From Linanthus parryae (Eukaryota > Streptophyta > Magnoliopsida > Ericales > Polemoniaceae), in the NCBI GenBank assembly GCA_023055425.1, contig JALGPY010000006.1, forward strand, positions 69,534,127 to 69,598,126: a stretch of 64,000 bases of DNA, written 5' to 3'. The notes beneath the pieces are model-generated. The model ran no database searches. It worked only from the letters and a program-made list of their open reading frames with translations, and was not told the DNA's origin. Of the stretch, positions 13,791 through 58,834 are shown piece by piece. The position numbers were made by a program, and so were the translations under genes. Positions within the stretch are counted from its first letter, which is position 1. Each line of letters begins with the position of its first letter.

Positions 13791-13821
13791 ACACGTAATA
13801 CTTACCTGATTCTCCCCCTAG

Positions 13822-17241: not shown

Positions 17242-17308
17242 TAATTCTTATTCTTGAAGTTTCTCAGTAAAAGTAGTATTTTGTTTATCCAGTTCGTGAT
17301 GTCTTAGA

Positions 17309-18719
17309 TTACAAGGCTATTACTCGAGAGAGAGAGTTCTCAGTGACTACTTCCTTGACTTGTGTTGTCAAGGCTTTGAAACTGGTTTTCAAGGCCTTGA
17401 AATCACTGTCAGTTTTCTTCTGAGAGATTTCAAGATTCTGATTTAGGCAAACAAGTTTAAAATTTTCTTTTGCTTGCTCATGAAATTTTTCTTTCAAAAC
17501 TCTAATTTCTTTCAGATAGTCCTCTTCATTTAAAAGCAATGTTCTAAGATAATCAGAGATGGCTTCTGTTGGTTTTGAAATCAAACAATTCACCATTACC
17601 TCAATGTTCTTTTCAGAACTTTCATCATGCTTGGCCATAAACATAGGTTGACATGTTCTTCTTCAGATCCAGAGTCACTTGCGGTATTTGAATCACTCCA
17701 TGAGGCTTTCATAGCTTTCATTCTATTATCATGATCTTTCTTCTGAAATTTCTTTCTTTTCTTGTGTGGATAATCTCTGATCAAGTGTCTTGCATCACCA
17801 CATGGAAAGCAATTCATGACTTTAGGCTTATTATTTTGTGAAGAAGACTTACCTTTGTAGTCCTTGCTACTGGAGGATCTGTGTCTTTCTCTGTTGAAGT
17901 CCTTGTTTCCAAAGTTTTTCTTCATCTTAAGAATTATGGTCAAGGATTTGGAAATCAAAGAAATTAGATCTTCATCATCATCCTCAGTTTCAAGGCTTTG
18001 AATTGTCTCATTCTCTTTAGCCTAGAGAGGCAAGTTCTTTACACCTTCTGGTAGCTCTCCATCAGATTCATTCATGGATATTTCATGTGTGAGGAGCTTC
18101 CCTTGTAGGTCATCAAGTTGGAGTGATGAGAGATCTTGAGCTTCCTCAATAACAATAGTCTTTGGTTCCCATTTTTCATTTGGAAGACTTCTCAGAATCT
18201 TCCTCACCTTTTCTTCATTGGAAATATGTTTTCCCAGTAGGTTGATGACAATGTCTGTGAACCTTTTGAACATGTCTCTGATTGACTTATCTCCATTCAT
18301 CTTGAAAAGCTCATATTTCCTGAGATATATATTGATCTTGGTTTGCTTCACTTGACTGGTTCCTTCAAAGGTCACCACAAGCTTATCCCATATCTCTTTG
18401 GCAGTCTTGCAGCTTGAAATCCCGTTAAATTCATCTGCACTCGAAGGACAATATAAGAGATTCATAACTTTATAGTTATTTGAGAATTGCTCTAATTCAG
18501 ATGATGAAAGAGAGTCTTCTGATTTGGGAGCTCTAATTCCATCCTTCTCTCTGTAGAAAGTATGAGGACCATTTTGGATGATAGTCCAGAGTTCCATATC
18601 TTGATCAATAACGAACATTTTCGTCAAAGCTTTTCAGTGGACAAATTGTCTCCACAGAATAGAGGAGGTCTGTTAGCAGCTCTTCCGTGTGAGAAACCAC
18701 CATCACCTACAGTACTCAT
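17309..18719 (-). pseudogene. Copia C body C1: gag
   Basis: The likely start is ATG 18719, encoding a gag N-terminus with GFSHGRAANRPPLFCGDN. A frameshift near 18650 leads into the main open stretch (18627-18022) with DMELWTIIQNGPHTF and AKEIWDKLVVTFEGTSQVK, the usual copia gag core. Next come a first zinc knuckle whose last cysteine is Tyr (CFPCGDARHLIRDY, within 17958-17596) and a helical segment (17644-17309). This last part contains SDFKALKTSFKALTTQ, produced by a palindrome pair at 17367/17388. Gag forms the virus-like particle. The frame is interrupted at least twice, so it is not functional as it stands. Confidence 0.8.
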
Positions 18720-20440
18720 AATCACAACATGGTTAAATCTATGCAGTGATACAAGAATAATATCACCTTTCTAAGTATGATCTCTGATGAAATGATGTAC
18801 AACATCTATGTGCTTGTTTTTGGAATGCTGAACTAAATTTTTTGTAATTAAAATAGCACTGGTGTTGTCACATTTGATAGGTATTTCTTTGAAATCGAAT
18901 CCAAGATCCCTCATTTGATGAGCAAGCACTTGTGAACAACATGCTCGAGTTGCTATATATTCAGCTTCAGCTATTGATAATGCCACATAGTTCTGTTTCT
19001 TTTAATGCCAGCTAATTAGGGACGAACCACGGAATTGGAAACACCATGAAGTGCTCTTTCTGTCAACTTTATATCCTACAAATAAGCATCTGAATATCCA
19101 CAAAAAGAGAAGTTAGACTGATTTGGAGTTAAATGTTGAAGAAAGTATTCATGTCATTCTTTGGTACCATTGAGAAGCATCTGAATATCCTACAAATAAG
19201 TCTTTGGTACCATTCAGGTATCTGAATATTCTTTTAACAGGAGTTAAATGTGACTCTTTGGGATGAAATTGAAATCTTGCACACATACAGACACTTAACA
19301 TAATGTCGGGTCTACTAGCAGCGAGATACAGAAAAGATCCAATCATACCTTTACACTCTTTCTGATTTACACTCTTACCAGCTTGATCCTTATCTAAGGA
19401 TAGTGTAGAACTCATTGGAGTCTTTGTCACTTTGGAATGAGACATATTGTACTTTTTAATTAAGTCATTAGTATACTTGTTTTGATGAAGAAAGATTCCT
19501 TTCTTCATCTGGTGCACATGCAGTCCAAGGAAGAAGTTCAATTCTCCCATTAAGCTCATCTCAAATTCCCTGCTCATAAGACTTCAGAAATCCTTGCAAA
19601 GAGATTCATTATTAGCTCCAAAATGAATATCATCAACATATATTTTAACTACTAAAATGTTTTTCTCATGAGTCTTGATGAAAAGGGTTTAGTCAACTAA
19701 TCCTCTTTTGAAACCATTTTCAAGTAGAAACTTTGAAAGTCTTTCATACCAAGCCCTTGGAGCTTGTTTTAAACCATATAGAGCTTTTTCAATTTTATAA
19801 ACATGATTTGGAAACTCACCGCTTTCAAATCCAGGAGGTAGAGACACATAAATTTCTTCTTGCAAGTAACCATTTAAAAAAGCACACTTGACATACATTC
19901 GAAAAAGTTGAATGTTCATGTAAGATGAAAATGCAAGTAACATCCTAATTGCTTCTAACCTTGAAATAGGAGCAAAAGTATCCACATAATCAATACCTTC
20001 TTCTTGGTTGTAGCCGTGAGCTACTAGTCTAACTTTGTTTCTGATTACCTTCCCATTTTCATCTAACATGCTTCTGAAGACCCACCTTGTGCCAATGACA
20101 GACTGATCTTTTGGTGGAGGAATTAGATTCCACACCTTGTTTCTCTCAAATTCATTGAGTTCACTTGGTATTGCAATGATCCATTCTGCTTCTTGTAATG
20201 CTTCTTTCACATTTTTGAGTTCTACAAGAGAAACAAAGGTATTAAAAGCACACAAGTTTTTCAATTGAGATCTTGTCTGTGTACCAGTGGATGGATCAGA
20301 TATAATGTTTTCAACTGGATGAGATGAAAAATAGTTGAATTTCTTTCTTCGAGTCCAAGGCTCAGGTTCTCCAGATAACTTCTAAATCCTTTGAGATCTT
20401 GAGGAAGTAGCTTGATCGCTTTATTCTTTTGTTGCTCATT

Positions 20441-20475
20441 TTCAAGGCTTTGATAACCATTTTCAAGGCCTTGAA
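20441..20475 (-). repeat. In-frame palindrome pair in the C2 IN-RT linker
   Basis: TTCAAGGCTTTGAT (20441) and TTCAAGGCCTTGAA (20462) lie 21 bp apart and are read on the minus strand as IFKALKMVIKALK. The same pair sits at the equivalent place of body C1 (15571/15592). Confidence 0.8.
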
Positions 20476-21282
20476 AATTTGTCCTGTTTTCCTACAAGCT
20501 TTCCTTGAAACCATGTAAAGTTTATGCTTCATCTTCTGACTCATGCTTGTTCAAATTCAAGTCTGCAAAACTTTCACTCAAAGAAACATCATAGCTTTCA
20601 TAAAGAATGACATGAATACTTTATTCAACAAGCTTAGTTATTTTATTTTAAACTCTATAAGCTTTGCTAGTCAGAGAATAACCAAGAAAGATACCTTCAT
20701 CACTTCTTGCAAAAAATTACCAAGATTGTCCTTACCATTATTGTGAACAAAACATGTGCAGCCAAAAGGTTTGAAATATGAAATGTTTGGCTTTCTTCCT
20801 TTGAAAAGCTCATAGGGGGTCTTCTTCAAGATTGACCTAATCAGGAACCTGTTAAGTATGTAGTTGGCTGTGTTCGCAGCTTCAGCCCAGAATGACTTTC
20901 GTAACTTGTTCTCTAGAAGCATTTTCCTTGACATATCTTTAAGAGTCATGTTCTTTCTTTCAACAACACCATTCTGTTGAGGAGTTTTTGGAGCAGAAAA
21001 GTTGTGAGAAATACCATGCTTAGCACAAAATAACTCAAACTCAAGCTGATCAAATTCTCTACCATGATCACTTTTGATTGAAGCAATTGGTAGGTTTTTC
21101 AAAGTTTGAAGCTCCTTACAAAGCTTTGAAAATTTAGTCAGAGCTTCAAATTTATCTCTAAGAAACATAACCCAAGTAAATCTAGAATAATCATCAACAA
21201 TAACTAACATATACTTCTTACCCTTTGGAGTTGGAATCCTCATAGGAACACAAAGATCCATGTGAAGTAATTCAATGGACAA

Positions 21283-21313
21283 GGGAGGTCTATTAGCAGC
21301 TAATAGACCTCCC
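21283..21313. repeat. 31-bp perfect palindrome at a deletion junction
   Basis: GGGAGGTCTATTAGC, a single A, then GCTAATAGACCTCCC form an exact inverted repeat with 15-bp arms. The arm sequence appears again just downstream (from about 21325), so the gag-deletion joint in C2 was sealed with an inverted copy of nearby DNA. Confidence 0.85.
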
Positions 21314-21414
21314 ACAGAACAAGGGAGGTCTATTAGCAGCTCTTCCATGTGAGAAACCACCATCTCCTATAATACTCATAATCACAAGATTGTTAGATCT
21401 ACATAGTGATACAG

Positions 21415-21426
21415 GCTCTGATACCA
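21415..21426 (-). promoter_or_regulatory. Copia C primer binding site (initiator tRNA-Met)
   Basis: The minus strand reads TGGTATCAGAGC directly after the 5' LTR. This is the standard Ty1/copia primer site for minus-strand DNA synthesis. Confidence 0.9.
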
Positions 21427-22932
21427 ATTGAAGGACGGTACAGTAGGAATAATTACAAGATCAATACTCTAGAAGGGGGGTTGAATAGATTATGGTAATT
21501 TTTGCAACTTTTGCTAAAAGATTGGTTTAAAAGAAGTTTGTGAAGTGCAACAAGTATTAAAAGGCCTTGAAATAAGTTTCAAGTCCTTGGAATGAAAACA
21601 GAACGTAAATAGAAAGCTGATAGTTTTCAAGGCCTTGAAATGAGGTTCAAGACCTTGAACTGAAAACCTGTTTTGAATAGTTTATAGGATAAGTAAAATG
21701 CAGCAATGTAAATGTAAGAGACACAGTGATTTATAGAGTTCAGTCCACTTGGACCTACCACTCTGTCTCTGCTCTTTCTACCCAAATTGACTTTTTGACT
21801 CGTATCTGGGTTACTTTGACCGGGTGATTTGGATAGTAAAATAATACGATATTTTGATAATTTATTCACCGTATGATAGATAAAATTTTATTCTACAACA
21901 CCATGAAAAAATTATCGAAAAATTGCATCGATTTGCTATTCAAATCAATTGGTCAAAGTGACCAAGTGAATAATGGCAAAAGTCAAAGTGGGTAGAAAGA
22001 GCAGAGACAGAGTGGTACATATCTACCTCAGGGACTTGACCCCTGCAGGATTTTCAAATCAATTCTTATTAATCAAAAGCTAAGCCCTAGATCTAAAGCA
22101 CAGAGAGATGCCTTACTCTGTTACAGCTTGTGTTTCTCACTAACCTATCTAGTACCAGCTCTAGCTAACTAGTAATTCAGAATTCTCTATTGTTCACCTT
22201 TAACAATTCACAAGAATAAGAAATGAAATTAATATATAAATGATATACAATTGAAGATTAGAAGAGAAGAACACTGAGAGCTAAGTCTTCACTGAGAATG
22301 CAGTGTTCTTGATATGATTGGATTGAGTGATGTAGATCTACTTCTTGGTTGCTTGTCAATCCTCTATGGAGTTTGAATGTCTCTGTATATTATGCTCTTT
22401 TGTGTCTAGAAATTCTTCATCCACAAAGATCCTTTTATGCAGCTTGTTTGAACTGAAGATATGCAAGATCTTCATTAACAAACTTTCCTAAAATTTAGCT
22501 GCAAGTCTTTGACTCTTCTAACAGCTCTCCCAACGGCTAGTTGCTCAGTATCTTCAAAGATACTGTCTTGATCTTGTTTGTTAGATGGTTGGGAAGCTTT
22601 AGATGCAGCATATCAATGTGAATAATGACTTCGATAGATTGATTTCCATCCTACATTGAAATAGATTAGGAAACAATCCTACAAAATAGGAAATTATATA
22701 TCCCTGCAAAAACTAAGTCAAACAAATATTTGAATCATTTTTACAATAATAGAATGATTTGTCTTTCCCCATCAAGTAACATATAATAAATCATAAGAGA
22801 TCAGGAGTAAGAATAGAATCAAAAACTCCCCCTAAATGCATGCCAAAATCTGCAGTTCTGATTTCAAACCCTTGAACCAGTTTCAAGGCCTTGACAAGCT
22901 CTTTCAATCCTTTGAAACAGGCTGAACTTACA
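21427..22932 (-). repeat. Copia C 5' LTR, with a MITE inside
   Basis: This 1506-bp block aligns with the 1260-bp left LTR apart from a 258-bp MITE at 21758-22015. On the plus strand it ends GAACTTACA. Palindromes start at 21558/21578 and 21626/21646, and as a triplet at 22863, 22882 and 22903. The last base pairs next to the primer site are degraded. Confidence 0.8.
21758..22015. mobile_element. MITE, 258 bp, with long terminal inverted repeats
   Basis: It begins CCACTCTGTCTCTGCTCTTT and ends with the reverse complement AAAGAGCAGAGACAGAGTGG. Terminal inverted repeats extend past 25 bp and include TGACTTTTG-like inner parts. It is absent from the equivalent place in the left LTR (near 10420). 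The flanks read TA on both sides (21756-21757 and 22016-22017), so a TA duplication is likely; the superfamily is not certain. Confidence 0.75.
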
Positions 22933-26559: not shown

Positions 26560-26850
26560 ATGGTGATAGCCTGAAAATGGGATTAGTCTGGGACATCTTT
26601 TTACCATTGGTTCTAATCCTGTGAGAGTTGAGTTTGCCAGCTTATTTTCCATCTGATACGAGGCAGAGACTTATAGGACATGATTGTAAGATTTGAGTAA
26701 TTTCATGTATAATTTTGTTTGTTGGATATGATCGCGGGTACATGTTATGATGTGCAGGTAACAGGTGCCGAGAAATGCATGAGATTGACTTGGATTTGGA
26801 GGCAGCGTATCAGGAAAGCTGAGCAGAAAAGTGCAGAAAATTCTAAGTTG

Positions 26851-27148
26851 TGCGTTCAAACGCAGGGGAGCTGCGTTCAAACGCACCACATGGCAGCAGG
26901 AAGAAAAACGGCAGAAAAGAGGCTAAGTTGTGCGTTCAGACGCACAGACCTGCGTTCAAACGCAGGACTCGACTCAGGAATGTGAAAGACCAAGTTGTGC
27001 GTTCAAACGCAGGTGAGCTGCGTTCAAACGCACAAGTCCGAGAGGCCAGGAGACAGAAGAGAAAATTGGTTAAGGCCTGCGTTCAAACGCAGGAGATGTG
27101 CGTTCAGACGCACTGCGTTTGAACGCAGGGGAGTTGCGTTCGAACGCA
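26851..27148 (+). repeat. Athila-1 5' LTR palindrome array, 10 copies in 5 pairs
   Basis: Copies of TGCGTTCAAACGCA or close variants start at 26851/26872, 26931/26951, 26998/27019, 27078/27099 and 27114/27135. Spacings inside the pairs are 21, 20, 21, 21 and 21 bp. Pair starts are 80, 67, 80 and 36 bp apart. Three first members follow AAGTTG. Peptides read across the array (CVQTQ and RSNAG repeats) are a by-product. Confidence 0.95.
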
Positions 27149-27231
27149 AGTGTGGTTTCCAGAAGCTTCCAGGACGGGGGTTTTGAGGGTAGAACAGGAA
27201 TTTCGTGCATCAGTTTTGGAGACTGTGGCAG

Positions 27232-27240
27232 TATAAAAGG
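27232..27240 (+). promoter_or_regulatory. Athila-1 LTR TATA box
   Basis: TATAAAAGG begins 84 bp after the last base of the palindrome array (83 bp between). This is the likely LTR promoter. The 3' LTR has the same box at 38556, again 83 bp after its array. Confidence 0.8.
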
Positions 27241-28239
27241 AGGTGTCCCAGCACAGAATTAGGGTTACACTCACACATCCACAATCATCATCACAGCAGC
27301 CAGTTTCAGAGCCGTCAAGATTGGAGCAGAGCAGGAATGGAGCAGTTTTTCAGTATTCAGCCATAAACTTGTTTGATCTTTTCTCTCTTATGAAACAGTG
27401 TTTTTCAATAATGCAATCTAGCTAAACCTTTTTCCTATGTTCTTGGTGAACCAAGGGTTTATGAATTCAGCAGACTGGGTTGTTTGATTTTCAGATGCAT
27501 GACTAGTTGAAGTCTTAATACAAGATGGATTGTTTATTATCTTGTCTTTGATTTTATTTACATACATGAATGTCTTGATCACCCAGGAGTGTTATAGACA
27601 GGATCTGGTGCGCGAGAGTGGCCAGTGAGAGTTAGGAAGAGAAGACAGGATTTAGTACTCTGCCATGATGGACCGAGAGGTGAAAAGAATCAGGGGACTA
27701 GCCCAGAAGCATTAGACCAACTGCTAGACGTTTAGGGGGAGACCGAGAGGAGAACCTGTAACCCTAGCAGACTTAGAACGAACCTGCAGATTTAGGTGGA
27801 CCGAGAGGACCCGAAAATCTGCAGGAGAGTGACAGGTGCATGAGACCGAGAGGAGATTGTACTATTGGTATGCTGGCATAAACAAAACTACTGTGTGTTT
27901 CTGAAATCAAATACACCAGGCAAGCTGGAGAGTAACCCTAGGGGATCCTGGGACCTAGATTCTTAGAATTATCGACTTTTACAACGACCACAATTCCTGA
28001 AAATTACCTAAAAGAAAAATAAAATAAGCTTTTCTAAATATTGTTTTATTTACTGCATTAGTGAGTAGAATCACATCCCAACCTTCCTCCTTTTTACAGG
28101 CTTTGTGTCTAATTCTTTTTCTAATAAGTAAAACTTAAACTGTTCTCGAGGGTTCGACAACCAGAGTCACAAATACATACTCTATATTACTTGATCGTAC
28201 ACTTGCGAAAAAGCAGATAGGTTTACGCTGTCAAGTTTT

Positions 28240-28257
28240 TGGCGCCGTTGCCGGGGA
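28240..28257 (+). promoter_or_regulatory. Athila-1 primer binding site (tRNA-Asp)
   Basis: TGGCGCCGTTGCCGGGGA lies six bases after the LTR. It complements the 3' end of plant tRNA-Asp and is the typical Athila primer site. Confidence 0.95.
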
Positions 28258-28378
28258 ACGGTTACAGTTTTTCTTAAAAAGACATTAGAATAAGTCTCAA
28301 AGCTTTTTCTTTTCCTTTTACGTTTATTTTCCTTTGACTTATTGCTCTTGAATTCTGATTTTCAGGTTATTCTAGTAT

Positions 28379-29614
28379 ATGTCCAGATTGCCTAGAAAAC
28401 TGGTATCACCACTTGAAGATCCCGAAAAACTTTTCAGAGAGCAAAGTCGCAGACACCGAGCCGCGATGTCTGAGCACGGAGAAGACGCGCCAACCGAAAC
28501 AGGAACACCCACAGGACAGCAGCAACGTACTCCAGCACAGATGGCTCTTTACATTGAAGAGCTGATAGCAGCAGGCTTTGCTGCCAGGAACAATCAGAGG
28601 ACTTACAACAGGTCTGGAAGGGCGATAGTCGAAAATTTTGAAGTCCCAACCGGAGGAAATCAACCAGCTATCGTAGTGCCACCCATTACAGCAGAGCACT
28701 TCGATCTGAAATCATCCACCATTCAGACCGCCAAGACTCATTGTCCTTTCAATGGGAAAGCAGATGAAGATCCAAACGACTTCCTTGGAAAGTTCGAAGA
28801 CTACTGCAACAAGATTAAGTATAGAGGAGTCGAAGCGGATACGCTAAAGCTAATTTTATTCCCATACTGCTTGTTCGGAACAGCAAAAGACTGGCTGGAG
28901 GCAAGACCTCCGAGGTCTATCACTACCTGGGAAGGGTGTGTTACAGATTTTTTGGCAAAATTCTACCCCGCATCCCGTGTTATCAAGCTGCAGAGTGAGA
29001 TCTTATCTTTCAAACAGAAGATGGCGGAAACGGTGGTAGACGCATGGGACAGGCTGATGAGACTCGTTAAAAAATGCCCCAATCACGGCTTCGGGGACGC
29101 AAAAATTTTGCAGGTATTCTACCATGCTCTTGACAGGGAGAATGCTGACAGGATTGATAGGGAAGCTGGGGGTAACATTCTATACCATGTGGATAAGGAT
29201 GGAGCATATGAACTGATGAAACAATTAGCCAAACAGGATACTCGCCTGTTTGATGACCGCAGGCTCACAGCGATAGCAGAACTAGTGGCTGATGACAGGA
29301 TTGACAATCTCACGAAAGTGGTACATGACTTAGTTAAAAAGGTGTATACAGAGAAGAAGCCCGTGGCATCAGTAGACGAACCTGACCTTGACGCAGCAAT
29401 TCTGGAGCTTCAGACCGAAGATGCCAATTATGTTCAGCAGCAGTGGGATCTGAAACGCTACAGACCAGGCACACGCGATCATCCAGGGTTTCGTTACGGA
29501 AACCCCAATGCAGCAGTCTATGCACCAGGATTCCAGCACAGGCCACAGGCACAACAGACAGCCCCAGCACAGCACGCACCAGCAGCACCACCACAGCTAA
29601 ATTTATCACAGTAA
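28379..29614 (+). pseudogene. Athila-1 gag, ended by a premature stop
   Basis: The reading frame starts at ATG 28379 (MSRLPRKLVSPLEDPEKLF), the same place as in Athila-2. The capsid-type gag core spans roughly residues 120-260 (CPFNGKADEDPNDFLGKFED, LFGTAKDWLEARPPRSITTW, AWDRLMRLVKKCPNHGFGDA). A Gln/Ala/Pro-rich segment follows. In Athila-2 the frame continues straight into protease. Here a C-to-T type change makes TAA at 29612-29614, after LNLSQ. The frame beyond is unchanged, so this is a single nonsense mutation separating gag from pol. Gag builds the cytoplasmic particle. Confidence 0.9.
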
Positions 29615-32600
29615 CATTTTGAGTCCTATATGGAGAAATTTAATAAGCAATGGGAAACTAGATTTGCGCAGATGGAGTCATTAACTGCCGATGTAAGCCA
29701 AATGAAAATTGCTATCCGCAACTTGGAGGTACAGAATGGTCAGCTTGCACAGAACCAGGTAGAACGAGCCCCAGGGAATTTACCGTCAAATACAGTGAAC
29801 AATCCACGCGCTGAAATCAATGCTATCACAACTCGGAGTGGAATTGCACTGCAGGATCCACCGTATCCCAGTCATGCACGTGCAGAGAAGTCAAAGATCA
29901 TTGAACACGAAGTGTTTGACAGGGAAAACAGTTCAACCGCTAACCCTCAGAAAAGGGGTTCGGTCGAGCAGGAAGCAGAGCAGACTAATGAGGGTAGTCC
30001 AGAAACAGTGCCAATCTCTAAGGAGGTACCTTACCCTCTGAAGACACGTAAGAGAGATGACAGCAAAGACTACGCCAGATTTCTGGAGGTATTCAAGCAA
30101 TTACAGATAAACATACCTTTTGCCGAAGCACTTGCCAAATTGCCTACTTACGCGAAATTTCTCAAAGACATATTGTATGGGAGAAGGCGAATGAGTGACT
30201 TCGAAACAGTGAATCTGACGGCAGAAGCGAGCAGTTGTGTGAAAAATGGTCTACCACTGAAAAAGAAAGACCCTGGCAGTTTTGTTATTCCAGTAACTCT
30301 GGGCAGTGCATACACAGGAAAAGCCTTATGCGACTTGGGTGCCAGCATCAACCTGATGCCACTGACCATCTTCAAAAGTCTGGGAGTCGGTGAACCACGT
30401 CCAACAAGAATTATGCTTCAAATGGCTGACAGATCTGTGAAACCTGCCTATGGAGTAATTGAAGATATCCTGGTAAAAGTTGGAGAGCTTATTTTTCCAG
30501 CAGATTTTTTGATACTGGATATGGAGGCCGGAGAGGTCCCGCTAATCTTGGGCAGACCCTTCCTAGCAACTGGTGAAGCCATTATTAACTGCAAAAGTGG
30601 AGAGCTGTCCATGCAAATCAATGAAGAAAAAGTGAAATTCAACGTCTTCAAATCTCTCCAGCTTCCTGACCATTATGGGCATGAAAACTGTTTTGCGGTA
30701 GAAGTAATTGATGATCTGGAGAGTGAGGAGATGGAAAATTTATGGGAGGAATTTGAGGACATGTATCCAGAGGAAACAGAGGAGCAACAGACTGAGCAGA
30801 TCATGGGAACAGAGAGCTGGGTCACTCTATATAAGGATGAAGGAGGCGAGCAGAAAATTACACTGGTCCCATCACTCCAGGAACCACCAGTCCTGGAATT
30901 AAAACAGTTGCCAGACCACCTCAGGTACGCTTTTATTGGTGAAAATAATACTCTGCCGGTAATTGTTTCGTCTCTTTTATCTCAGGAACAGGAACAAAAG
31001 CTGCTGGAGGTACTTCGAGAGCATAAAGAAGCCATCGGATGGACAATTGCGGACCTAAAGGGAATCAGTCCTGATTACTGCAAGCACAAAATAAGAATTG
31101 AAGAAGGAAAGAAGCCAGTCATCCAGCCTCAACGGAGACTAAACCCAATTATGAAATATGTGGTACGTAAGGAGGTCATGAAGTGGTTAGAAGCAGGAAT
31201 TATATACCCCATATCAGACAGCACCTGGGTCAGTCCTGTCCTGTGTGCACCAAAGAAAGGGGGTATTACAGTAGTACAAAATGCTGATCAGGTGCAGATC
31301 GCCCAGCGCACTGTCACTGGCTGGCGAATCTGTATGGACTATCGGAAGCTGAACGATGCAACACTGAAAGACCACTTTCCGATGCCATTCATGGACCAGA
31401 TGTTGGACAGACTGGCTCACCATGCTTATTACTGCTTCCTTGACGGGTACTCTGGCTACAACCAGATCTATATAAATCTAGAAGATCAAGAAAAGACGAC
31501 GTTCACCTGCCCATACGGAACGTTTGCCTTTAGAAGAATGCCATTTGGATTATGCAATGCTCCAGCAACATTCCAAAGATGTATGATGGCCATTTTCTCT
31601 GACATGATAGAGAAAAATTTGGAAGTTTTCATGGACAATTTTTCGTTATTTGGGGACAGCTTTGAAGACTGCTTATACCATCTGGCCAGAGTTCAGACTC
31701 GCTGCAGAAAAACTAACTTGGTACTCAACTGGGAAAAATGCCACTTCATGGTTACAGAAGGAATAGTGTTGGGACACAGGATTTCCAGCAAAGGAATGGA
31801 AGTAGACAGGGCAAAGATAGAGGTGATCAAGCAGCTACCATACCCAACCACAGTGAAGGCAATTAAGAGTTTTTTGGGTCATGCAGGATTTTACAGAAGG
31901 TTTATCAAAGATTTCTCAAAAATTACAAAGCCACTATGTAATTTGTTGGGAAAGGATGTGCCCTTCATATTTGACGAAGCCTGCAAAGAAGCCTTTGACG
32001 TGCTTAAAGACAGGCTGACAACTGCGCCCATTATCACAACGCCAGATTGGACCCTCCCATTCGAGCTGATGTGCGACGCCAGTGATTACGCAGTGGGCGC
32101 AGTACAGGGACAGCGAAAAGATAAAGTGTGCAGTGTCATTTACTATGCCAGCAGGGTCCTGAATGAGGCACAGATCAATTACGGGACTACAGAGAAGGAG
32201 CTGTTGGCAGTCGTTTTTGCGCTGAATAAGTTCAGATCCTACCTGGTAGGTTCAAAAGTCATCATATTCACAGATCACAGTGCACTGAAATACTTACTGG
32301 AGAAGAAGGATGCAAAGCCAAGGTTGCTGCGTTGGATTCTGCTGATGCAGGAATTTGATGTCGAAATCAGGGATAAAAAGGGAGTTGAAAATGTGGTAGT
32401 TGATCATCTATCTCGCCTGGAAAACCCTACAGAAGAATTGGTACCAATTCAAGAAAATTTTCCGGATGAACATATTATGAAGATCAAGACCAACAGACGG
32501 CCCTGGTATTATGCCATAGCCAATTATTTGGTCAATGGAGCACTCCCTGAAGACATCACTCCTTGGCAGAAAAAGAAGTTTATTTCAGAATGCAGGCAAT

Positions 32601-33792
32601 ATTTCTGGGACGATCCTTATCTATTCAAGCAAGGGGCAGATAATATTCTCCGTCGTTGCATTCCATGTCACGAGATTTTGGAGGTAATTCAGCACTGCCA
32701 CTCAGCACAATGTGGGGGGCACTTCAGCGGACCGAGAACAGCCCACAAAGTGCTGCAGTCAAGATTTTTTCTGGCCAACAGTCTTCAAGGATTGCCATGA
32801 TTATGCGCAGAGTTGTGATCGCTTCCAACGGACAGGAAATATTTCCCAGCGAAATGAAATGCCCATGAAACTTTGGCAGGAAGTCGAGCCTTTCGACGTT
32901 TGGGGTATTGATTTTATGGGTACATTCCCTTCGTCTCTGGGAAATCTCTGCATCTTACTGGCAGTAGACTACGTGTCAAAATGGGTGGAAGCAATAGCCT
33001 GTCAGAAGAACGATGCGGCAGTCGTGGAAAGATTACTCAAACGTAATATCTTTACCAGATTCGGAACGCCAAGGGCCATGGTCAGTGATGAGGGTTCTCA
33101 TTTTATCAATAAGGTCTTCGCCAAGGTTCTAAAGCAGTACGGGGTGTTTATCCATAAGGTATCACTGCCTTATCACCCTCAGGCAAACGGGCAAGCAGAG
33201 GTGTCCAACAGGGAGATAAAGAGCATACTGGAAAAAAACTGTGAATCCTGGACGCAAGGACTGGTCATTAAAGCTGGATGACGCGCTCTGGCCGTACAGA
33301 ACTGCTTACAAAACCCCGCTGGGAATGTCCCCATACCAGCTGGTGTTTGGAAAAGCCTGTCACTTACCAGTAGAATTGGAGCACAAAGCATACTGGGCAA
33401 TCAAGCAGCTGAATATGGATCACAGTTTAGCAGGAAACAAAAGGAAGATGGCACTCTTCGAACTCGAGGAATTCCGTAAAACTGCTTTTGAGAGTGCCAA
33501 AATTTATAAAGAAAAAACAAAGAAGTGGCATGACAATCGCATTCTACCAAAGAAGATAGAAATCGGGCAGAAGGTTCTCCTTTACAACTCAAGGATGAAA
33601 TTCTATCCAGGGAAGCTGCGCTCAAGATGGTCTGGACCATTTATTGTGAAAGACATTACATCATGGGGAGTGGTGGAGTTGGAGACCCCAAGGGACAATA
33701 CAGTTTTCAAGGTGAATGGGAACAGAGTCAAGCCATACAGAGATCCTCAGGAGATCATAGAGGTAGAGGCAATCTACCTCGACCTTCCTTGA
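29615..33792 (+). pseudogene. Athila-1 pol: protease, reverse transcriptase, RNase H, integrase (broken)
   Basis: The main open stretch is 29630-32800 (1056 codons). Protease has CDLGASINLMP with DLGA near residue 235. RT has STWVSPVLCAPKKGG, PFGLCNAPATFQRCMM and the active site at residues 667-670, which reads FMDN instead of FMDD as in Athila-2. RNase H begins with [12 protein letters not shown], followed by [13 protein letters not shown]. Integrase starts with the zinc-binding part ([11 protein letters not shown]). Near 32770 an extra T shifts the frame. Integrase goes on at 32712-33281 ([33 protein letters not shown]), where one zinc cysteine is Phe (CDRFQRTG). An extra A near 33235 shifts it again, and the last part (33241-33792) ends at TGA. 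The enzyme set cannot work as it stands. Confidence 0.92.
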
Positions 33793-33842
33793 TCACAACG
33801 GAGGTAACAAAGTCGGGCTGTCGACTATAAATCACAAGCGCT

Positions 33843-33857
33843 GGTTGGGAGGCAACC
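33843..33857 (+). repeat. Post-integrase inverted repeat
   Basis: GGTTG-GGAGG-CAACC can fold into a small stem-loop about 50 bp after the pol stop. Athila-2 keeps the region on the other strand near 49983-49998, with a slightly changed arm. A similar GGGAGGCAACCC stretch is, as I recall, common after integrase in plant gypsy elements. Confidence 0.6.
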
Positions 33858-33967
33858 CAACATAGATTAGTTGTTTTTATATATTTTTTTAAAAAATGTT
33901 CATAATTCGAGAGAAAGGTGAGAAAGAGGGGTTTAATATGAATTCAGTGTTTCAGGAATCAGACGCG

Positions 33968-34494
33968 TGCGTTCAAACGCAGACAGCTTGCGTTCAAACG
34001 CAGAACCACCAACCGACCGAAGAAACACTGAAAATGGCTAACACTTTTGCATTCAAACGCAGACCACCTGAGTTCAAACGCAGATCACACAATGAATATT
34101 TCCAGCTAACAAGTTGTGCGTTCAGACGCACGAGTAGCGTTCAAACGCAAGAAGAAAAGATGGACTGGAAAAACCTAATGACGTGCGTTTAAACGCAGAG
34201 GGAGCGTTTGAACGCAAGAACCAATCAACAGAGAATTTCTAGAGAGAAGGCATGCGTTTAAACGCAGTTCACCTGCGTTCAAACGCAACTCAGCAGAAGA
34301 ATTGCATAAACAAGCAGTGCTTTAAACGCAAGTCATGTGCGTTCAAACGCAGTTCACCAAACCTAGAATATTTATAGATCTTCAAGTTGTGCGTTCAAAC
34401 GCACAAGCTGCGTTCAAATGCAGATCAAGAAAAATTCAAATTTCCAGAAAAAGTGAAGCGGTGCGTTCAAACGCAGAAGCTGCGTTCAAACGCA
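33968..34494 (+). repeat. Athila-1 internal palindrome array, 16 copies in 8 pairs
   Basis: Pairs start at 33968/33989, 34048/34069, 34117/34136, 34184/34203, 34253/34274, 34318/34338, 34390/34409 and 34462/34481. Spacings inside the pairs are 21, 21, 19, 19, 21, 20, 19 and 19 bp. Pair starts are 80, 69, 67, 69, 65, 72 and 72 bp apart. The consensus is TGCGTTCAAACGCA. Variants include TGCGTTTAAACGCA, decayed TGCATTCAAACGCA and TGCGTTCAAATGCA, and one copy with a 1-bp deletion (34318). The array fills the space between pol and the promoter-like region of ORF3. Confidence 0.95.
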
Positions 34495-34577: not shown

Positions 34578-34586
34578 TATATATAC
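34578..34586 (+). promoter_or_regulatory. Candidate internal promoter for Athila-1 ORF3 (TATA box)
   Basis: TATATATAC (within CCTATATATACTG) begins 84 bp after the last palindrome base (83 bp between), as in the LTR. It lies about 310 bp before the ORF3 ATG. It is conserved in Athila-2 at 49206-49214. Promoter activity is an inference. Confidence 0.6.
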
Positions 34587-34890: not shown

Positions 34891-36566
34891 ATGGATGAGG
34901 ATAGCTCGTATATGAGGCCTGTTTGGGCGATCGCACCCTTGAACATTATAGATTGCAGACTGCTTAGGGCTGACCATTTCTGCGACCATAGGTTTGTCAA
35001 TATGGAGGCTCACCGTTTCTTTCTGCAAGACAAAAAGATTCGGTATGACATACCCGCTGAGAGAACTTTTCCCCGTGATAGAGTGGCGATGGGGGATGAC
35101 ATGTTCAACTATACTGGGCAGGATCATTTTGGGGATTTGTTTACTGGTTTTACCAATCTGCAAGTCAAATCTGTGCTGGCTAAGGAGATTTTCAGTAATC
35201 TCCAGCAGTGCATGAACAGTGAAGCCCAGTCAATTGACTGGATTTACTGCAGAAAGAGATGGATTCGGATCACCCCAGAGAGTATTCGAGAGAGTCTGGG
35301 TCTGGAATTAGTGTTGGATGACTGTCAGTTTCAGGAACTGAGGCGTCATCCCTCTGAACAGCTTAGCGAACAGATCCTAACCACCTTGTGTGCGGGTGTA
35401 CCAGGCGCTGCTTGGTACTATCCTGACCGGAGTCCTTCCTACCGGAAACTCCCTGCTACATATGTGATTCGAGAGGCGAGATGGTGGACTGAGTGGGTAA
35501 ACAACAGGATTGTGGGTATTAAACACTTACCCGTATAGATTATAATATTGCCCTTTTGGTGTACTGTCTGATGGCCAGAGAGCCTGTGAGCCTCCCGGAG
35601 ATTATTTGTGAGTTTTTTCGGGAACGAAGAGAGTCCCACAGCAAGAAGGGTTTTGGTCTTCTGGGGATGTTGACTAAAATGGCACAGGATTATCGGGTGG
35701 TCATTCCTGGTGACCTGCGGGATATCCGACCAGTGCAGGTACGCAAGTACCGAAACATGAGATGTGCTTTGCATGAGGCTCTGCATGGGCCTCCAGAATA
35801 TGTCCAAGTGGACGATGATGATGATGATGGTGCTCCGCCTCAGGGTGGGGGTGATGGCATGCCACCGCCACCTCCACCCGGTGTTGGGGGTTTTCCAGCC
35901 TTACCAGGTCCCCTTCGACTGCCACGATCTGCCAGTTCCAGTGAACACAGGCAGACCGAGCCCGACTTAGGGCAGTCCAGCAGAGGGGCCAGGCGCAGTT
36001 CTTTTGGGCGCCTGGAGAGGACTGAGCATGAGGAATGGGTCAGAAAGAAAATTAAGGCCCAAGAAAAAGTGCAGAACTACCTGGTAAGGACGGTCAAGAA
36101 AATGGCCAGGGGTCTTGGAAAGTTGTTCAAGACCCAGAAGCATATTTACCACGCTAACACAGCCGCACTGAGAGCTCATGAGGCGGCACTCGCTGAAATT
36201 CAGAGCAACATGCGTGGTAAGAGATTTAACTTCCCGGACCGCTATTCAAGTGATAATTGTCCGAGTTGGACAATGGAGGATAGTAGGCCATATGACAGCT
36301 TCTCTGGCCATGACCCCACACCGAGTCCGGAACACGGAGAAAATGTTGGTGACCCCGGCAGACCCGGTACCCAGTACCCACCTAGGCAGCATGTAGACCC
36401 AGGGGCCAGCAGTGCCCATCCCGGTGCCAGCCACGCTGGTACCGCTGCCGCAGCACGGCATGCTGCGAGGAAACGCCCCAGAGGGCGAACCCCTGAACCA
36501 TCTCCAGAGCCGACTGACCAGTCTACTCCGGAGAACACAGATTCTAGTTACAGGCCAGATCAGTAG
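34891..36566 (+). pseudogene. Athila-1 ORF3 (putative plant transposon protein family), one frameshift
   Basis: The ATG at 34891 (MDEDSSYMRP) is chosen because the open frame upstream of it lacks an ATG; Athila-2 starts at the same place. The family core spans roughly residues 65-240: FTNLQVKSVLAKEIFSNLQ, RWIRITPESIRESLGLEL, ARWWTEWVNNRIVGIKH. A missing T near 35530 shifts the frame, and the rest (YCLMAREPVSLPEIICEFF and beyond) continues in the second frame at 35556-36566. Then come an acidic D-run, a proline run, a long basic helical segment (EWVRKKIKAQEKVQNYLVRT) and a basic C-terminus ARKRPRGRTP that looks like a nuclear localisation signal. No signal peptide or membrane helix was seen. 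Function is not established. Confidence 0.85.
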
Positions 36567-37880: not shown

Positions 37881-38828
37881 TGATAGCCTGAAAATGGGAT
37901 TAGTCTGGGACATCTTTTTACCATTGGTTCTAACCCTGTGAGAGTTGAGTTTGCCCATTTTCAGCTTATTTTCCACCTGATACGAGGCAGAGACTTATAG
38001 GACATGATTGTAAGATTTGAGTAATTTCATGTATAATTTTGTTTGTTGGATATGATCGCGGGTACATGTTATGATGTGCAGGTAACAGGTGCTGAGAAAT
38101 GCATGAGATTGACTTGGATTTGGAGGCAGCGTATCAGGAAAGCTGAGCAGAAAAGTGCAGAAAATTCTAAGTTGTGCGTTCAAACGCAGGGGAGCTGCGT
38201 TCAAACGCACCACATGGCAGCAGGAAGAAAAACGGCAGAAAAGAGGCTAAGTTGTGCGTTCAGACGCACAGACCTGCGTTCAAACGCAAGACTCGACTCA
38301 GGAGTGTGAAAGACCAAGTTGTGCGTTCAAACGCAGGTGAGCTGCGTTCAAACGCACAAGTCCGAGACGCCAGGAGACAGAAGAGAAAATTGGTTAAGGC
38401 CTGCGTTCAAACGCAGGAGATGTGCGTTCAGACGCACTGCGTTTGAACGCAGGGGAGTTGCGTTCGAACGCAAGTGTGGTTTCCAGAAGCTTCCAGGACG
38501 GGGTTTTTGAGGGTAGAACAGGAATTTCGTGCATCAGTTTTGGAGCCTGTGGCAATATAAAAGGAGGTGTCCCAGCACAGAATTAGGGTTACACTCACAC
38601 ATCCACAATCATCATCACAGCAGCCAGTTTCAGAGCCGTCAGGACTGGAGCAGAGCAGGATTGGAGCAGTTTTTCAGTATTCAGCCATAAACTTGTTTGA
38701 TCTTTTCTCTCTTATGAAACAGTGTTTTTCAATAATGCAATCTAGCTAAACCTTTTTCCTAGGTTCTTGGTGAACCTAGGGTTTATGAATTCAGCAGACT
38801 GGGTTGTTTGATTTTCAGATGCATGACT
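37881..38828 (+). repeat. Athila-1 3' LTR, left piece
   Basis: It matches the first 940 bp of the 5' LTR, including the palindrome array (38175-38472) and TATA box (38556). It stops at GCATGACT, where copia B begins. Confidence 0.95.
38175..38472 (+). repeat. Athila-1 3' LTR palindrome array, 10 copies in 5 pairs
   Basis: Same arrangement as 26851-27148: first pair at 38175/38196, last copy starting at 38459. The array ends 83 bp before the TATA box at 38556. Confidence 0.95.
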
Positions 38829-40260
38829 TGTTGGGTTTTGACGTAGGTAACGCAGCGGAATAACAAAATTAATCCTACTCAAAGCCCACCAAGGATCACA
38901 GGAAGAGACATCATAACATGATTAAGGTCATAGAAGATGTGTACCTTTTGATTTGTGAGATCACACGAAGAATGATGTCCTCGTCTCTACGGTTGATCCA
39001 CGTCTAGAGGTGAGATCTAGATTCTTCCTTCTCCACAAGTGCTAGCTTGAACCCGGAGGAAGAGGGATGAAGATCAAAGCAACAAAGCAACAAAGCACAA
39101 AGGAGGGGGCGGCCTCCTTTTGCCGTCGGGTAGAGGGGGCGGACGGGGGCTAGGGTTTCGGCCCTAGCTCTTTGTCTTGCTCTCTCTTTTGCTCTCTCCC
39201 ACTTTTGTGTTATGACTAACTCATGTATTGGGAAGGAAGCTAGAGCCTCCTTTATATACTCCAACAACTCCTTGTTGTTTCCATAAAAGAGTTTCCTAAA
39301 TCTAGATGAACTAGAATTATTCCCTTCCTTGCAAATTTGTCCTACTAAGTTTGCAAGGTGTTGCACAATGATCCTTATATTAATTAATCAATATTAATTA
39401 ATCCCAAATCTAGCTCTACTCTATTTGACGTGTGACCCCATAGGTTTCTATATAGTTGGTAGTAACTATTACTAACATGGAGCGGTGTCTAGCAACACAT
39501 CCATGCCACCCAACCAATAGAAATAGTCAGTGATCCCGACAAACCTTTGTGCCCAATATATCGTATTGCATTATCCCTTTGTCTCCATATCCGGATTGGA
39601 CACGAGACATAAATAGTCACACTCGTATATCCAATCCATATTTCCTCGATCCTGGGAATATGCTTATACTTGCAGATAACATTAATATCTCTATATTAAT
39701 TTATCTGAGTCTGGCCAGACATTCAATAAGCCTCATCCCTCGAGTGGCCGTGGATATTTATCCCCATTATGTGGGAGGGACAAATCCTATCTACATCACT
39801 ACGATCTCTAAGCTTGCTTCCTATCATGCCCGATAGCCACCTTTATGATTACCCAGTTACGGTGTAACGTTTGATAACATCAAAGCACAATATTCCACAA
39901 CTAGAGTATCTAGTGACTTCAAGTCTAAGGATTGCAATATTATTAGCACTACGAGAAGAGATTGTGACTTCAACATAATCTAATGTATCCTTCTCGTCGT
40001 GGGTCATCCAGTATGCCATTACTCCTAATGCATACCCATGTGTTGGATCGTGATATCTCCATATCAATCCAACCCCATACTAGTCTATAGATGATTGTCC
40101 CATTAATCATTATAATTGACTAGGGATATTTAAGAATAAAACACCTTATATTCTAAGGACTTCATTCATGTTAACATATCTCCATATCGATAACATAATG
40201 AATCGTAAATCCATATATTTGTCACAATTAATTGATTGCCTCTAGGGCACAATTCCAACA
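38829..40260 (-). repeat. Copia B 3' LTR
   Basis: 1432 bp, TGTTGGGTTTTGACG...CAATTCCAACA on the plus strand. The 120-codon minus-strand ORF inside (39366-39004) recurs in the other LTR only because the LTRs are copies. Confidence 0.95.
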
Positions 40261-40278
40261 GTCTCCCACTTGCACTAG
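40261..40278 (-). promoter_or_regulatory. Copia B polypurine tract
   Basis: The minus strand reads CTAGTGCAAGTGGGAGAC directly before the LTR, a typical copia plus-strand primer site. Confidence 0.75.
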
Positions 40279-43200
40279 AGTCAATCTCCTGATCATATGC
40301 CTATTGATCTAGCGCGGTCCTCCACGCTTACACTGCGTAGGGGCGAGACATATGCTGGCACCTTGCAAATATTCACATCTCCTCCATCAACAATTTGATT
40401 GAGATTGAATATTCTGAATAAATGCATCTTATGCATTAATTTACTCAGTCCTCTATGTTAGAATCAGTGACTGAATCTTGCCTGGAACCTTTCCAGCTCA
40501 CAGTCACTCCCTCTAGCACAAAACAAAAAACTCGACTATAATCTGAAATCTTCTTTGTCAGATGGAAGTTCTCATCACTGTAACCCCTTACAGTGAACTT
40601 TTCCTATCCTCCATTAATCAAGAGTTCATCCTTTATTCCTTCTCAAGTACTTAAGGATAATCTTGATAATTATCAAGTGACACCTCACTTGGATTTGATT
40701 GGTATCTTTGTGTCATGTTTTATGACACGTCTGGCCTAGTACATCTCATGGCGTATCTCGTGAATCTAATTCATACGGTCTATTCCCAATCTAATTGGTA
40801 AGACAATTAGCCTTCCAAAGACTAATTCCATGTGACATGGGTAAGAATCAATATTTTTTTCACGTTGAACCATTTCAACACCTTGTCAATATATGTACCA
40901 TGACTCAGGCTGAACAATTACTTTAATCTATCTCCATAGACTTTATAGATTGTCTCGCCTAAGTTAATTATTGGAAATCAATTTCTCTAGCCAATCTTTA
41001 ATAGATTGCAGAGTAGAGACATTATTCCCAATGATTAGTATGTCTCTACATACAAGACCAGAAATTTAACTATGCTCCCACTAACCTTCTTGTAGACACA
41101 AGTATCATCTTCAATTTTTGATGGAACCAAACTCCTTTGATTGCATCATAAATTCGAAGAATCCAATCTCCAAGAAGCTTGACTCAATCTATAAACAGAT
41201 TGCTACAAGCAAGATGCGAATGGATTTAAGCATCACAACTGGGGAAAGATTTCGTCATAGTCTATACTATGAATTCTCATGAAACCCTTTCAAACCAGTT
41301 GTCCCTTAAAAGTAATCATATTACCATCCATGTTGGTTTCCTCATAACCTACTTGCACCCTATGGTTCCTACCCATTCAGGTGGTTCCACCAAAGTCCAT
41401 ACTTTTTTGGTATACATGGATTCCATATCGTATCTCATGGCTCCAAGCCATTTCTGAGAGTATGGCCACACGTGGACATCTCATAGGTTGTAGGCTCATC
41501 TCGATGAGCAATATATCACTGGTTATGAGAAATCCTTATTTATCTAGTCTCTCGATATATCCTACCTGTCCTACGAGGTTCTTGTGTTATCTGAGTAGGT
41601 TGTTCCACAACACCTTGTGATCCTGCTCATGTTCCATCAAACGGATCAATGTTCTATTGTGGTTCTTGAACTTTTCAAGTTCTACTGTCCTCCCACTTTT
41701 TCTTTTAGAGACAATCTCTACCTAGAAACACTGTGGTTCGAGAAACAAACAGTTTGTTCTCGATTAGGTTGTAGAAATAATATCCTTTTCAGGATATCCC
41801 ACAAAACATTTATCCGACTTGGGTCCAAGTTTATTTGTAAACTCTTTTACATAAACATCATAACCCCAAATATTTATGAATGACATACTAGGACACTTCC
41901 TAGTCCATATCTCATATGGTGTTTTTCATAATCCGTTTTTGATGGAATAAGGTTAAGGGCGAAATTTGCTGTAATTAGACCATAGCCCCTAAAAGTAAAC
42001 TGGAAGTTCTGTTTGACTCATCATGGTCCGAACCGTGTCCTACAAGGTTCGAACTCTCCTTTTAGACACGCCAAAACCCATGTGGCGTGCTAGGTGGAGC
42101 GAGTTTTGGATCATATCCAATACTCCCATAGATTCTTGTCAAACTCTTGGCTCAAGTATTTTCTTCTATGATCCAATCATAGAGTCTAAATACTTTTGCC
42201 AAGTTGGTTCTCTACTTCATTCCTGAATACTTTGAACAATTCAAAGGATTCTGATTTGTTTCTTCATAAGATACACAAATCCATATTTCTCTGATCCTAT
42301 CAGTAAATATGATGAAGTACTAAAACCATCTTTAGTATTTGTGCTTAGCGGCCTTCATACATCAATATGTATGATTCCCAAAAGATCATATCCTTGCCTA
42401 ATAAGTCTTACATGTCTCATATGATTCAATAATCAAATGAGTCCCAGAAATCCATCCTAATGGAGTTCTAGATATGTATCTCTTATTTATGGGTCTAAAC
42501 GATAATGCTAAAGATAAGTGAAGTTCATATCATTATATGCAAACCTCTAGGTATTAATGTTATAGATGAAATTATCATGATCATGGATATAGAATCCACT
42601 TAGACAAAATTGCATTACAATAATGCATACCATAATAAATGGAACAACATTTGTCCTTTTATTATGATAAGGAGCTTTCTTGTTCAAACAAGAAACTATG
42701 ATAATGGTCCTACTCATAGCAGGGACATTATCCCTTTTGTCTAATTCATGAACAATTTCTGAAAGGTAGAAATAATTCCCTACGGCTTTTCAGCAACCCT
42801 TTGCTTCATAGCCCCACGTGTAGGATTATTTCTTCCTTATCCAATTGTCTTCGTCTCTTGAGATCCTCCACATTTCTATAAATGTGAGATCCTCATCTAG
42901 TATCATATACTCTTGATGATGAGATAGACACATTGAATTTTATAATAAAATACCCAAGTCGGAATTCATAATTCCTTTATTATTTACTTCCATGTACTTT
43001 GGGTAGTCTCTCTTCCTCTACACCACCTATGGGACTTCGAGGCAACTTGGTTTTAGCAACAGGCTTGCCTTATACTCATGGGTTCGGCGCAAACCATTTG
43101 CCCTTACCCATGCTGTTAACTATTAACTGTTTTTGCCCATGCCCATTATGAGTGTTTTGTTTAGTGATTTTTCAATCATCTTTAAAACAAAACTGTAATT

Positions 43201-45884: not shown

Positions 45885-45921
45885 AAATACCCCCACACTA
45901 AACTCTGCTCGTCCCGAGCAG
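45885..45921 (-). promoter_or_regulatory. Athila-2 polypurine tract and pre-LTR hairpin
   Basis: The minus strand reads the hairpin CTGCTCG-GGA-CGAGCAG (45921-45905), then TAGTGTGGGGGTATTT (45900-45885) directly before the LTR. Confidence 0.85.
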
Positions 45922-46521
45922 ACCCTTGCATACTGCCTTGCAGACCCATCTTTTGCATACTTTAATTGCATACTTCCCTTTTTCCACAGATTCATGACAC
46001 AGACCAAAAGACTCAATAGATGACTGACTCAGATACAGAATCTACACAAACTGACTCAAGACACAGCAAGAAATTTTTTTTTTCTTCTGAAATTGGGCAA
46101 CCTCTCTATCATAAACTGAAATCATCAAATCCTCACAAGCTCATTTTGAAATTCCACAACACGCAGCAAGAAATGATATAAACTGATCCTGTGCACAAAC
46201 TCACTAAGGTATCCCCAAACATCCACCAAACCAACCAAGATAAAGCACGTCTTTTGACTTAGAGGGTTCAGGCATCTTAAGTCAACAGATAATTTTTCTT
46301 CGCCAAGTCATTTGAGGTTTTCAGACCCTCTTAGCCGTTATTGCGTTTGATTTGCAAATTGTCCCATTGCTGGGAGACACAACTCCTGTGTAATACGGCT
46401 TGACTTTAATTTCCCTCTTAAGCTCTAAATTGGATTGAATCCAAATTTTCCATGTGAATGGAAGCACATTATGTTATTTCTCCTTTAAGCACAAATAATT
46501 ATTATATATTTTTTTTTTCAG

Positions 46522-46557
<36 letters not shown>

Positions 46558-53070: not shown

Positions 53071-53109
53071 GTCCTCAAATTCCTCCCATAAATCTTCTAT
53101 CTCATCATT

Positions 53110-55588: not shown

Positions 55589-55594
55589 AAAACT

Positions 55595-57348: not shown

Positions 57349-57353
57349 GTTGC

Positions 57354-58833: not shown

Positions 58834-58834
58834 C

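Follow-up and report, generated by a model that had tools for sequence, protein, structure and literature searches.

Two nested Ty3/gypsy long terminal repeat (LTR) retrotransposons, labelled Athila-1 and Athila-2, carry clusters of a paired 14-bp palindrome, TGCGTT-YR-AACGCA (Y, C or T; R, A or G), both in the LTR and between pol and a third gene, open reading frame 3 (ORF3). They lie in a 64,000-nt stretch of the 1.51 Gb genome of Linanthus parryae (GCA_023055425.1, contig JALGPY010000006.1, 69,534,127-69,598,126, forward strand), referred to here as the window. We consider it probable that the clusters are operator (enhancer) arrays through which a dimeric regulator acts on two promoters of the same retrotransposon. 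Directly supported are the sites and their pairing, the distance of 82-85 bp from the arrays to a TATA-like box, the conservation of the palindrome arms and of ORF3, and the presence of a second family that combines palindromes with PF20167, the domain encoded by ORF3. The occurrence of the same paired palindromes upstream of both likely promoters suggests a shared control switch, which may be run by the element itself.

Palindromic sites and their pairing

A first-pass annotation of this DNA, made from the sequence alone, had counted 26 sites in one LTR plus the internal region of Athila-1. Our recount agrees: ten sites are in the LTR, 15 are internal, and alignment reveals one more, at ~34318, with a 1-bp deletion. 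Pair spacings in the LTR array (26851-27148) are 21, 20, 21, 21 and 21 bp as had been reported, and Athila-2 has the 30 sites attributed to it, 12 in its 5' LTR and 18 internal, forming 15 pairs with a spacing of 19 or 21 bp throughout. Each LTR holds 10 sites in Athila-1 and 12 in Athila-2. Athila-1 does not stop near 38.5 kb: the 3' LTR is interrupted at 38829 by another element (element Y), and Athila-1 reaches 61000. Sites were called with at most three mismatches in the arms for the internal array of Athila-1, and at most two for comparison with shuffled sequence. By the latter measure, 26561-61000 contains 77 sites and 38 pairs at 19-21 bp, whereas 60 dinucleotide shuffles averaged 0.77 sites, with never more than 3, and yielded no pair. 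The exact pattern has 26,642 matches in the host genome, and a reversed control pattern has 3.

We compared 22 internal arrays: the window's two and 20 genomic copies (L039-L058). The latter were hand-picked along a list of the best 77 of 6,478 first-look ORF3 candidates (the window's own ORF3, L038, among them), and the 1 kb upstream of each of the 20 ORF3 matches was used. The centre of the palindrome is YR in 379 of 379 sites of these arrays, as it is in 55 of 55 sites tallied separately. Paired sites are 21 bp apart in 116 cases, 19 bp in 70 and 20 bp in none. A palindrome longer than 14 bp was considered and rejected, as the flanking bases are complementary in just 21 of 55 sites. Read in element orientation, 20 of the 379 sites have G in place of A9 and three have the mirror change, T6 to C, with CA centres 326 times and TG once; this strand asymmetry could reflect inheritance or an RNA-level effect.

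The first-pass annotation took the spacing to place two cooperating protein dimers on one face of the DNA, two turns apart. Two-turn spacing holds inside pairs and fails between neighbouring pairs, which may directly adjoin, their sites being 15 or 18 bp apart, and no helical phasing of whole arrays was found in the two Athila-1 arrays (R 0.05-0.36 for periods of 10, 10.5 and 11). The linkers are modules of 5 or 7 bp that are swapped between pairs (ACTCATG is present in three different pair slots), and one pair slot of the internal arrays is 19 bp in some copies and 21 bp in others. Because linkers are swapped as whole modules, the restriction to 19 and 21 bp is partly inherited and is no proof of a helical requirement; a stronger case for about two turns comes from the near-20-bp pairing in an unrelated copia family, described below. 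The broader idea of an array of protein dimers is strengthened by the conservation of the arms and by the repetition of that pairing in the unrelated family, whereas cooperation across two turns is weakened by the partly inherited 19/21 rule, by 18-bp steps in a diverged LTR (in L007, below) and by arrays that share no helical face.

The linkers between paired sites are also the most variable columns (0.20), and their swapping looks like template switching at identical 14-mers. Inversion of linkers via hairpins was rejected: no reverse-complement linkers occur in any of nine pair slots.

Conservation of the palindrome arms

Between Athila-1 and Athila-2, 7 of 140 site positions differ in the LTR and 13 of 230 in the internal array, as opposed to 54 of 167 and 71 of 308 non-site array bases, respectively (the LTR counts depend on the alignment, another giving 5/140 and 41/157). 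The coding sequences of the two elements have a synonymous divergence (dS) of 0.16-0.30, which means that divergence in the array linkers and spacers is close to neutral. Among the 22 internal arrays, the mean pairwise difference is 0.021 in arms, 0.051 in centres, 0.200 in linkers, 0.095 in other spacers and 0.040 in flanks. Post-insertion changes follow another pattern: between 5' and 3' LTRs, 7 of 308 site positions and 5 of 360 non-site positions differ (p = 0.001 for the contrast), and the sites thus lose protection once the element has inserted.

The first-pass annotation had named plain tandem copying of the intervening DNA, with the palindromes no better conserved, as one finding that would undo its interpretation. 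The arms are conserved and the linkers and spacers are not, so the palindromes are conserved beyond the DNA between them, and this contrast rules out plain tandem repeats as the whole story. It is also very unlikely that the arrays are functionless repeats passively homogenised by template switching and unequal exchange. Such a process would fit the unit periods of 66-72 bp, the exchange of linkers between pairs as modules and the varying copy number, which ranges from 11 to 18 sites per internal array among the 22 copies. However, exchange shuffles linkers and leaves the constancy of the arms alone unexplained, as it does the distance to the TATA box and the persistence of one motif in the LTR of L005, which is just 69% identical to that of Athila-1 and has its TATA box at 85 bp. 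(L005-L007 are three further genome stretches that we compared with the window.)

Distance to TATA-like boxes at two candidate promoters

The arrays examined stop 82-85 bp upstream of a TATA-like box, both in the LTR and between pol and ORF3. Among clusters of at least four sites in the window and L005-L007, 10 of 11 have TATAWAW (W, A or T) 83-85 bp past the last site, the offset being 83 or 84 in the window's six clusters and 83 to 85 in four outside it. The 22 internal arrays have offsets of 83 (17 arrays), 84 (four) and 82 (one). TATAWAW has a background frequency of 0.0008 per base in the loci examined, and the 5' LTR of each Athila element contains a single sense-strand copy. Local alignment detected no similarity between the LTR and internal 83-bp promoter stretches (99 of 500 shuffles reached their score of 9), which means that a copied promoter is not by itself enough to account for the equal distance. 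Between Athila-1 and Athila-2, the stretch from array to TATA differs at 6 of 83 bases (internal) and 7 of 83 (LTR), and the sequence from the internal TATA on at 2 of 63.

The eleventh cluster, at 495-603 of L007, is a more diverged case, its LTR sharing 64% identity with the Athila-1 LTR. Here the palindrome is altered in both arms to TGCGTATATACGCA, present in four perfect copies and with no CA centres, and TATTTAAAG stands at 84 bp, the sole TATWWAW within 250 bp.

The retention of the arms amid drift elsewhere, and the single distance at which both arrays stand from a TATA box, suggest a DNA-binding dimer with a role in transcription; use of the TATA boxes, protein binding and activation are inferred. 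In such a mechanism, the LTR promoter would produce genomic RNA and the internal promoter the mRNA of ORF3. Each palindrome would be the site of a symmetric protein dimer, with a nuclear protein, from the host or encoded by ORF3, binding TGCGTTCAAACGCA, and one pair would set two dimers about two helical turns apart. Common sites at both promoters would allow one factor to switch both. The preferred element-encoded binder would be the ORF3 protein, which has PF20167, basic clusters and no clear membrane span; binding to its own arrays would create a feedback loop and perhaps counter silencing.

The position of the arrays also bears on whether they are a replication or integration signal beside an internal polypurine tract and not a transcription signal, which we regard as extremely improbable. 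A purine-rich tract does precede the internal array (Table 1), and an extra polypurine tract has been reported in Athila4 and Calypso linkers (PMC2829016), but the LTR array starts ~290 bp into the LTR, away from the main tract, and both arrays hold their distance to the TATA box.

On the antisense strand, the internal arrays have a sequence resembling TATATAAAA 82-84 bp out from their first site, mirroring the sense TATA distance. It was found at 21 of the 22 (at 33875-33883 of the window, in Athila-2 and in 19 of 20 genomic copies), and also in L007. This might reflect a bidirectional promoter or, given the high AT content of the region, chance.

The ORF3 protein and candidate binders

The role of the third gene of Athila-type elements has long been open, and an envelope function is hard to reconcile with the plant cell wall (PMC2829016). 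If the same operators stand at the LTR and ORF3 promoters, ORF3 is more likely to be a regulator, and its role becomes directly testable by binding and reporter assays. ORF3 is under purifying selection, with a ratio of nonsynonymous to synonymous divergence (dN/dS) of 0.10 and 0.13 in its two open parts. Among the 77 highest-scoring genomic matches, which include that of the window, 55 have a stop-free reading frame, a count biased upward because only best matches were scored. PF20167 is described in Pfam as a "putative plant transposon protein". The Athila-2 protein has a maximum mean hydropathy of 1.23, with no strong hydrophobic span, and two basic clusters, one of them close to its end. 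Nuclear localisation is predicted for the product of a PF20167 ORF in an active Athila of sunflower (PMC11728184), and many expressed sequence tags correspond to Arabidopsis Athila env sequences (PMC2410132). Searches for homologous proteins and viral contigs returned no relative, probably because the collections searched hold few or no plants.

If the arrays do serve two promoters, the ORF3 protein is quite possibly the binder and a host factor could well be; these gradings are not exclusive of the others given here. In its full form, the host alternative is that a host transcription factor binds the palindrome as a dimer at the same two-promoter arrays and that ORF3 has its role elsewhere, which is possible, if doubtful. 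Plant LTRs borrow host factor sites, and ORF3 lacks a recognised DNA-binding domain. On the other hand, another PF20167 element in the same genome has an entirely different palindrome, as if each element had its own factor, although two host factors would also do. ORF3 as the binder is likewise favoured by an unrelated element in which PF20167 goes with another palindrome and, by analogy, by the parallels to VANC and to foamy virus Tas discussed below. We tentatively suggest that PF20167 ORF3 proteins of both Athila and copia type may be sequence-specific transactivators or anti-silencers and not envelopes, each family having its own palindrome with dimer pairs ~20 bp apart, and that in Athila they may act at both promoters under feedback self-control.

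A copia family with PF20167 and its own palindrome

Degenerate Ty1/copia sequence (RVT_2 and copia gag domains) at 10.2-22.9 kb of the window contains a different paired palindrome, TTTCAAGGCCTTGAAA. There are 29 sites and 12 pairs at 19-21 bp, versus a mean of 0.12 sites and 0 pairs in 60 shuffles. The best 150 of 13,206 first-look PF20167 matches in the genome were scored and gave 30 loci (L008-L037), of which 25 fall in one cluster at 70% identity, mostly one copia family, and which are therefore not 30 independent cases. With at most three mismatches allowed, these loci have 95 TTTCAAGGCCTTGAAA sites upstream of the domain region, 5 within it and 85 downstream. An upstream pair 19-22 bp apart is present in 26 of 30, and 67 of the 75 distances of 19-22 bp are exactly 20; further distances comprise nine of 26-27 bp and a spread of larger ones. 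The linker is mostly 4 bases long in copia versus 5-7 in Athila, while the centre spacing is ~20 in both.

In this family (window 10221-22917, L008-L037), TTTCAAGGCCTTGAAA clusters at 20-bp steps flank the PF20167 ORF on both sides; L030 and L035 belong to a subfamily with TTTCAAAGCTTTGAAA at 21-22 bp. Palindrome pairs also occur inside or between pol-gag coding stretches of the window copia sequence (15570-15606, 17366-17402 and 20440-20476), and the pair at 17366-17402 encodes a repeated FKAL stretch.

Opposing evidence and RNA structure

Several observations weigh against two promoters controlled by a common dimer. The internal non-coding stretch contains three TATAWAW in Athila-1 and two in Athila-2, with one in each past the array. 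ORF3 mRNA may come from splicing: Athila env has predicted splice acceptors (PMC2829016), and in Athila-1 a pyrimidine-rich stretch closes with an AG at 34861, although Athila-2 lacks that AG. Steps in the L007 cluster are 18, 18 and 59 bp, not 19-21. Four of the 30 PF20167 loci (L011, L020, L027 and L028) have no upstream pair, L027 having no such site at all, and the LTR sites of the window copia element lie downstream of a TATA-like sequence at ~10840 (read by eye), so the promoter-proximal layout is shown only for Athila. No known DNA-binding domain was found in ORF3, for which hmmscan at E up to 5 gave PF20167 alone, and structure prediction gave no usable model (mean predicted local distance difference test score, pLDDT, 33), the long helix it places at 382-445 being a hint only.

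The folding of the arrays as RNA counts in the same direction: all four tested stretches fold better than all 200 shuffles (z -4.2 to -6.5), and the whole Athila-1 LTR array has a z of -7.7. The pairs might be RNA hairpins, with the 5-7 base linker as loop, that act as a small-RNA source, a target of host silencing or an RNA signal. Palindromes of maize Sireviruses are small-RNA hotspots (PMC5311732), the commonest arm change, A9 to G, preserves a G-U pair, and the L007 cluster with both arms changed is as compatible with a hairpin as with a dimer site. We nevertheless consider hairpins unlikely: they leave the near-constant distance to two TATA boxes unexplained, no arm-position pair is changed on both sides in 55 sites, and linker length differs between the Athila and copia families while the centre spacing stays ~20.

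Relation to known systems

The first-pass annotation knew of no described system in LTR retrotransposons with this layout. This was too strong, as Sireviruses have palindrome clusters upstream of the LTR TATA box and of an env-like gene (PMC2829016). The 13 Sireviruses described by Bousios et al. (2010) have 8-32 palindromes per element, with motifs that differ between elements; the palindromes precede the TATA box in the LTR and, in nine members that carry an env-like gene, stand mainly ahead of this gene (PMC2829016). Those authors suggested regulation and an internal promoter, the latter not conclusively identified (PMC2829016). The Athila clusters resemble them in both of these positions. 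Sireviruses, however, are Ty1/copia, whereas the elements here are Ty3/gypsy (gypsy-type gag, reverse transcriptase and RNase H, with integrase after RNase H); the core is CGG-CCG in 12 of 13 Sireviruses (PMC2829016) and TGCGTT-AACGCA here; and we found in the motif description of PMC2829016 neither a spacing of pairs nor a fixed distance to the TATA box, nor an internal TATA box that had been identified. The layout has a Sirevirus precedent and is here carried into a Ty3/gypsy element. What we add is the geometry of the pairs, the nearly constant distance to TATA at a candidate internal promoter, a test for selection and a protein family that is shared.

Foamy viruses resemble the layout predicted for Athila in that one retroelement has an LTR promoter and an internal promoter and a self-encoded activator, Tas, acts on both. 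Athila has shared sites and TATA boxes at LTR and internal positions, and their use as promoters is putative. Foamy viruses are animal retroviruses, and the likeness is one of layout, with no homology claimed. Their internal promoter is within env, whereas the putative one here is upstream of ORF3.

VANC proteins, anti-silencing factors encoded by VANDAL elements, carry DUF1985. That domain was not found in ORF3 (hmmscan, E up to 5), whose sole domain is PF20167 and whose binding is putative. What the two systems have in common is a protein family encoded by transposable elements, short motifs in fast-changing non-coding tandem arrays, and related elements with different motifs (PMC5735166, PMC10398659). 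VANDALs, in contrast, are DNA transposons, and their motif, YAGTATTAY, is not palindromic (PMC5735166, PMC10398659). Whether protein and site coevolve, as in VANDAL/VANC, is a question for which the Athila and copia families offer a natural comparison.

Grande gene23 (Gomez-Orte 2013, as cited in PMC7264820 and PMC11963269) is an accessory gene of a plant Ty3/gypsy element, with a nuclear protein and its own promoter. It differs from ORF3 in being antisense, and the citing accounts mention no palindrome array (PMC7264820, PMC11963269). In the open literature, with subscription papers outside the scope of the search, we found no description of the present case.

Organization of the nested elements

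The window contains a three-level nest of LTR elements at 26564-61000, with 5-bp target duplications at every level (Table 1). Of the 40 commonest palindromes examined, none is repeated inside element Y.

Table 1 Features of the nested LTR retrotransposons and of the neighbouring copia sequence in the window.
Feature	Position	Strand	Details
Athila-1	26564-61000	+	Target duplication CATGG at 26559-26563 and 61001-61005 (junctions)
Athila-1 5' LTR (TGATAG...TGTCA)	26564..28233	+	Self-BLAST, junctions
Athila-1 LTR array	26851..27148	+	10 sites TGCGTT-YR-AACGCA in 5 pairs
Athila-1 LTR TATA box	27232..27239	+	TATAAAAG, 83 bp past last site; only sense-strand TATAWAW of this LTR
Athila-1 primer binding site	28240..28257	+	TGGCGCCGTTGCCGGGGA; presumably tRNA-Asp type
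Athila-1 gag ORF	28379..29614	+	Retrotrans_gag
Athila-1 pol	29630..33281	+	Protease, reverse transcriptase, RNase H, integrase core; two overlapping ORFs
Purine-rich tract	33909-33931		Ahead of Athila-1 internal array
Athila-1 internal array	33968..34494	+	15 sites and one deleted site, between pol and ORF3
Athila-1 internal TATA box	34578..34586	+	TATATATAC, 83 bp past last site
Athila-1 ORF3	34891..36566	+	PF20167; two open pieces, break ~35538-35556
Athila-1 3' LTR, first part	37881..38828	+	Array 38175-38472, TATA 83 bp on
Athila-1 3' LTR, remainder	60267-61000	+	
Element Y	38829..60266	-	Inside Athila-1 3' LTR; target duplication TGACT; copia-type primer site at 58822
Athila-2	44127..57348	-	Inside element Y; target duplication GTTGC
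Athila-2 5' LTR array	56685..57054	-	12 sites; TATA 84 bp on
Athila-2 internal array	49299..49871	-	18 sites; TATA 84 bp on
Athila-2 ORF3	47226..48902	-	Open full length; PF20167 (E 4.9e-16)
Athila-2 3' LTR array	45220..45589	-	12 sites; TATA 84 bp on
Degenerate Ty1/copia element(s)	10221..22917	-	Paired palindrome TTTCAAGGCCTTGAAA, spacing 19-21
Copia element PF20167 ORF	12437..12859	-	E 6.3e-9, below Pfam cut-off

Athila-1 and Athila-2 have the gypsy-type domain order PF03732 (gag), PF13650 (protease), PF00078 (reverse transcriptase), PF17917 (RNase H) and PF00665 (integrase). A second RNase H (aRH) is the mark of the Tat clade (PMC6317226). The label Athila, taken from the first-pass annotation, is likely to be right for both elements, and the sense PF20167 ORF between pol and the 3' LTR in each of them matches the arrangement of the sunflower Athila.

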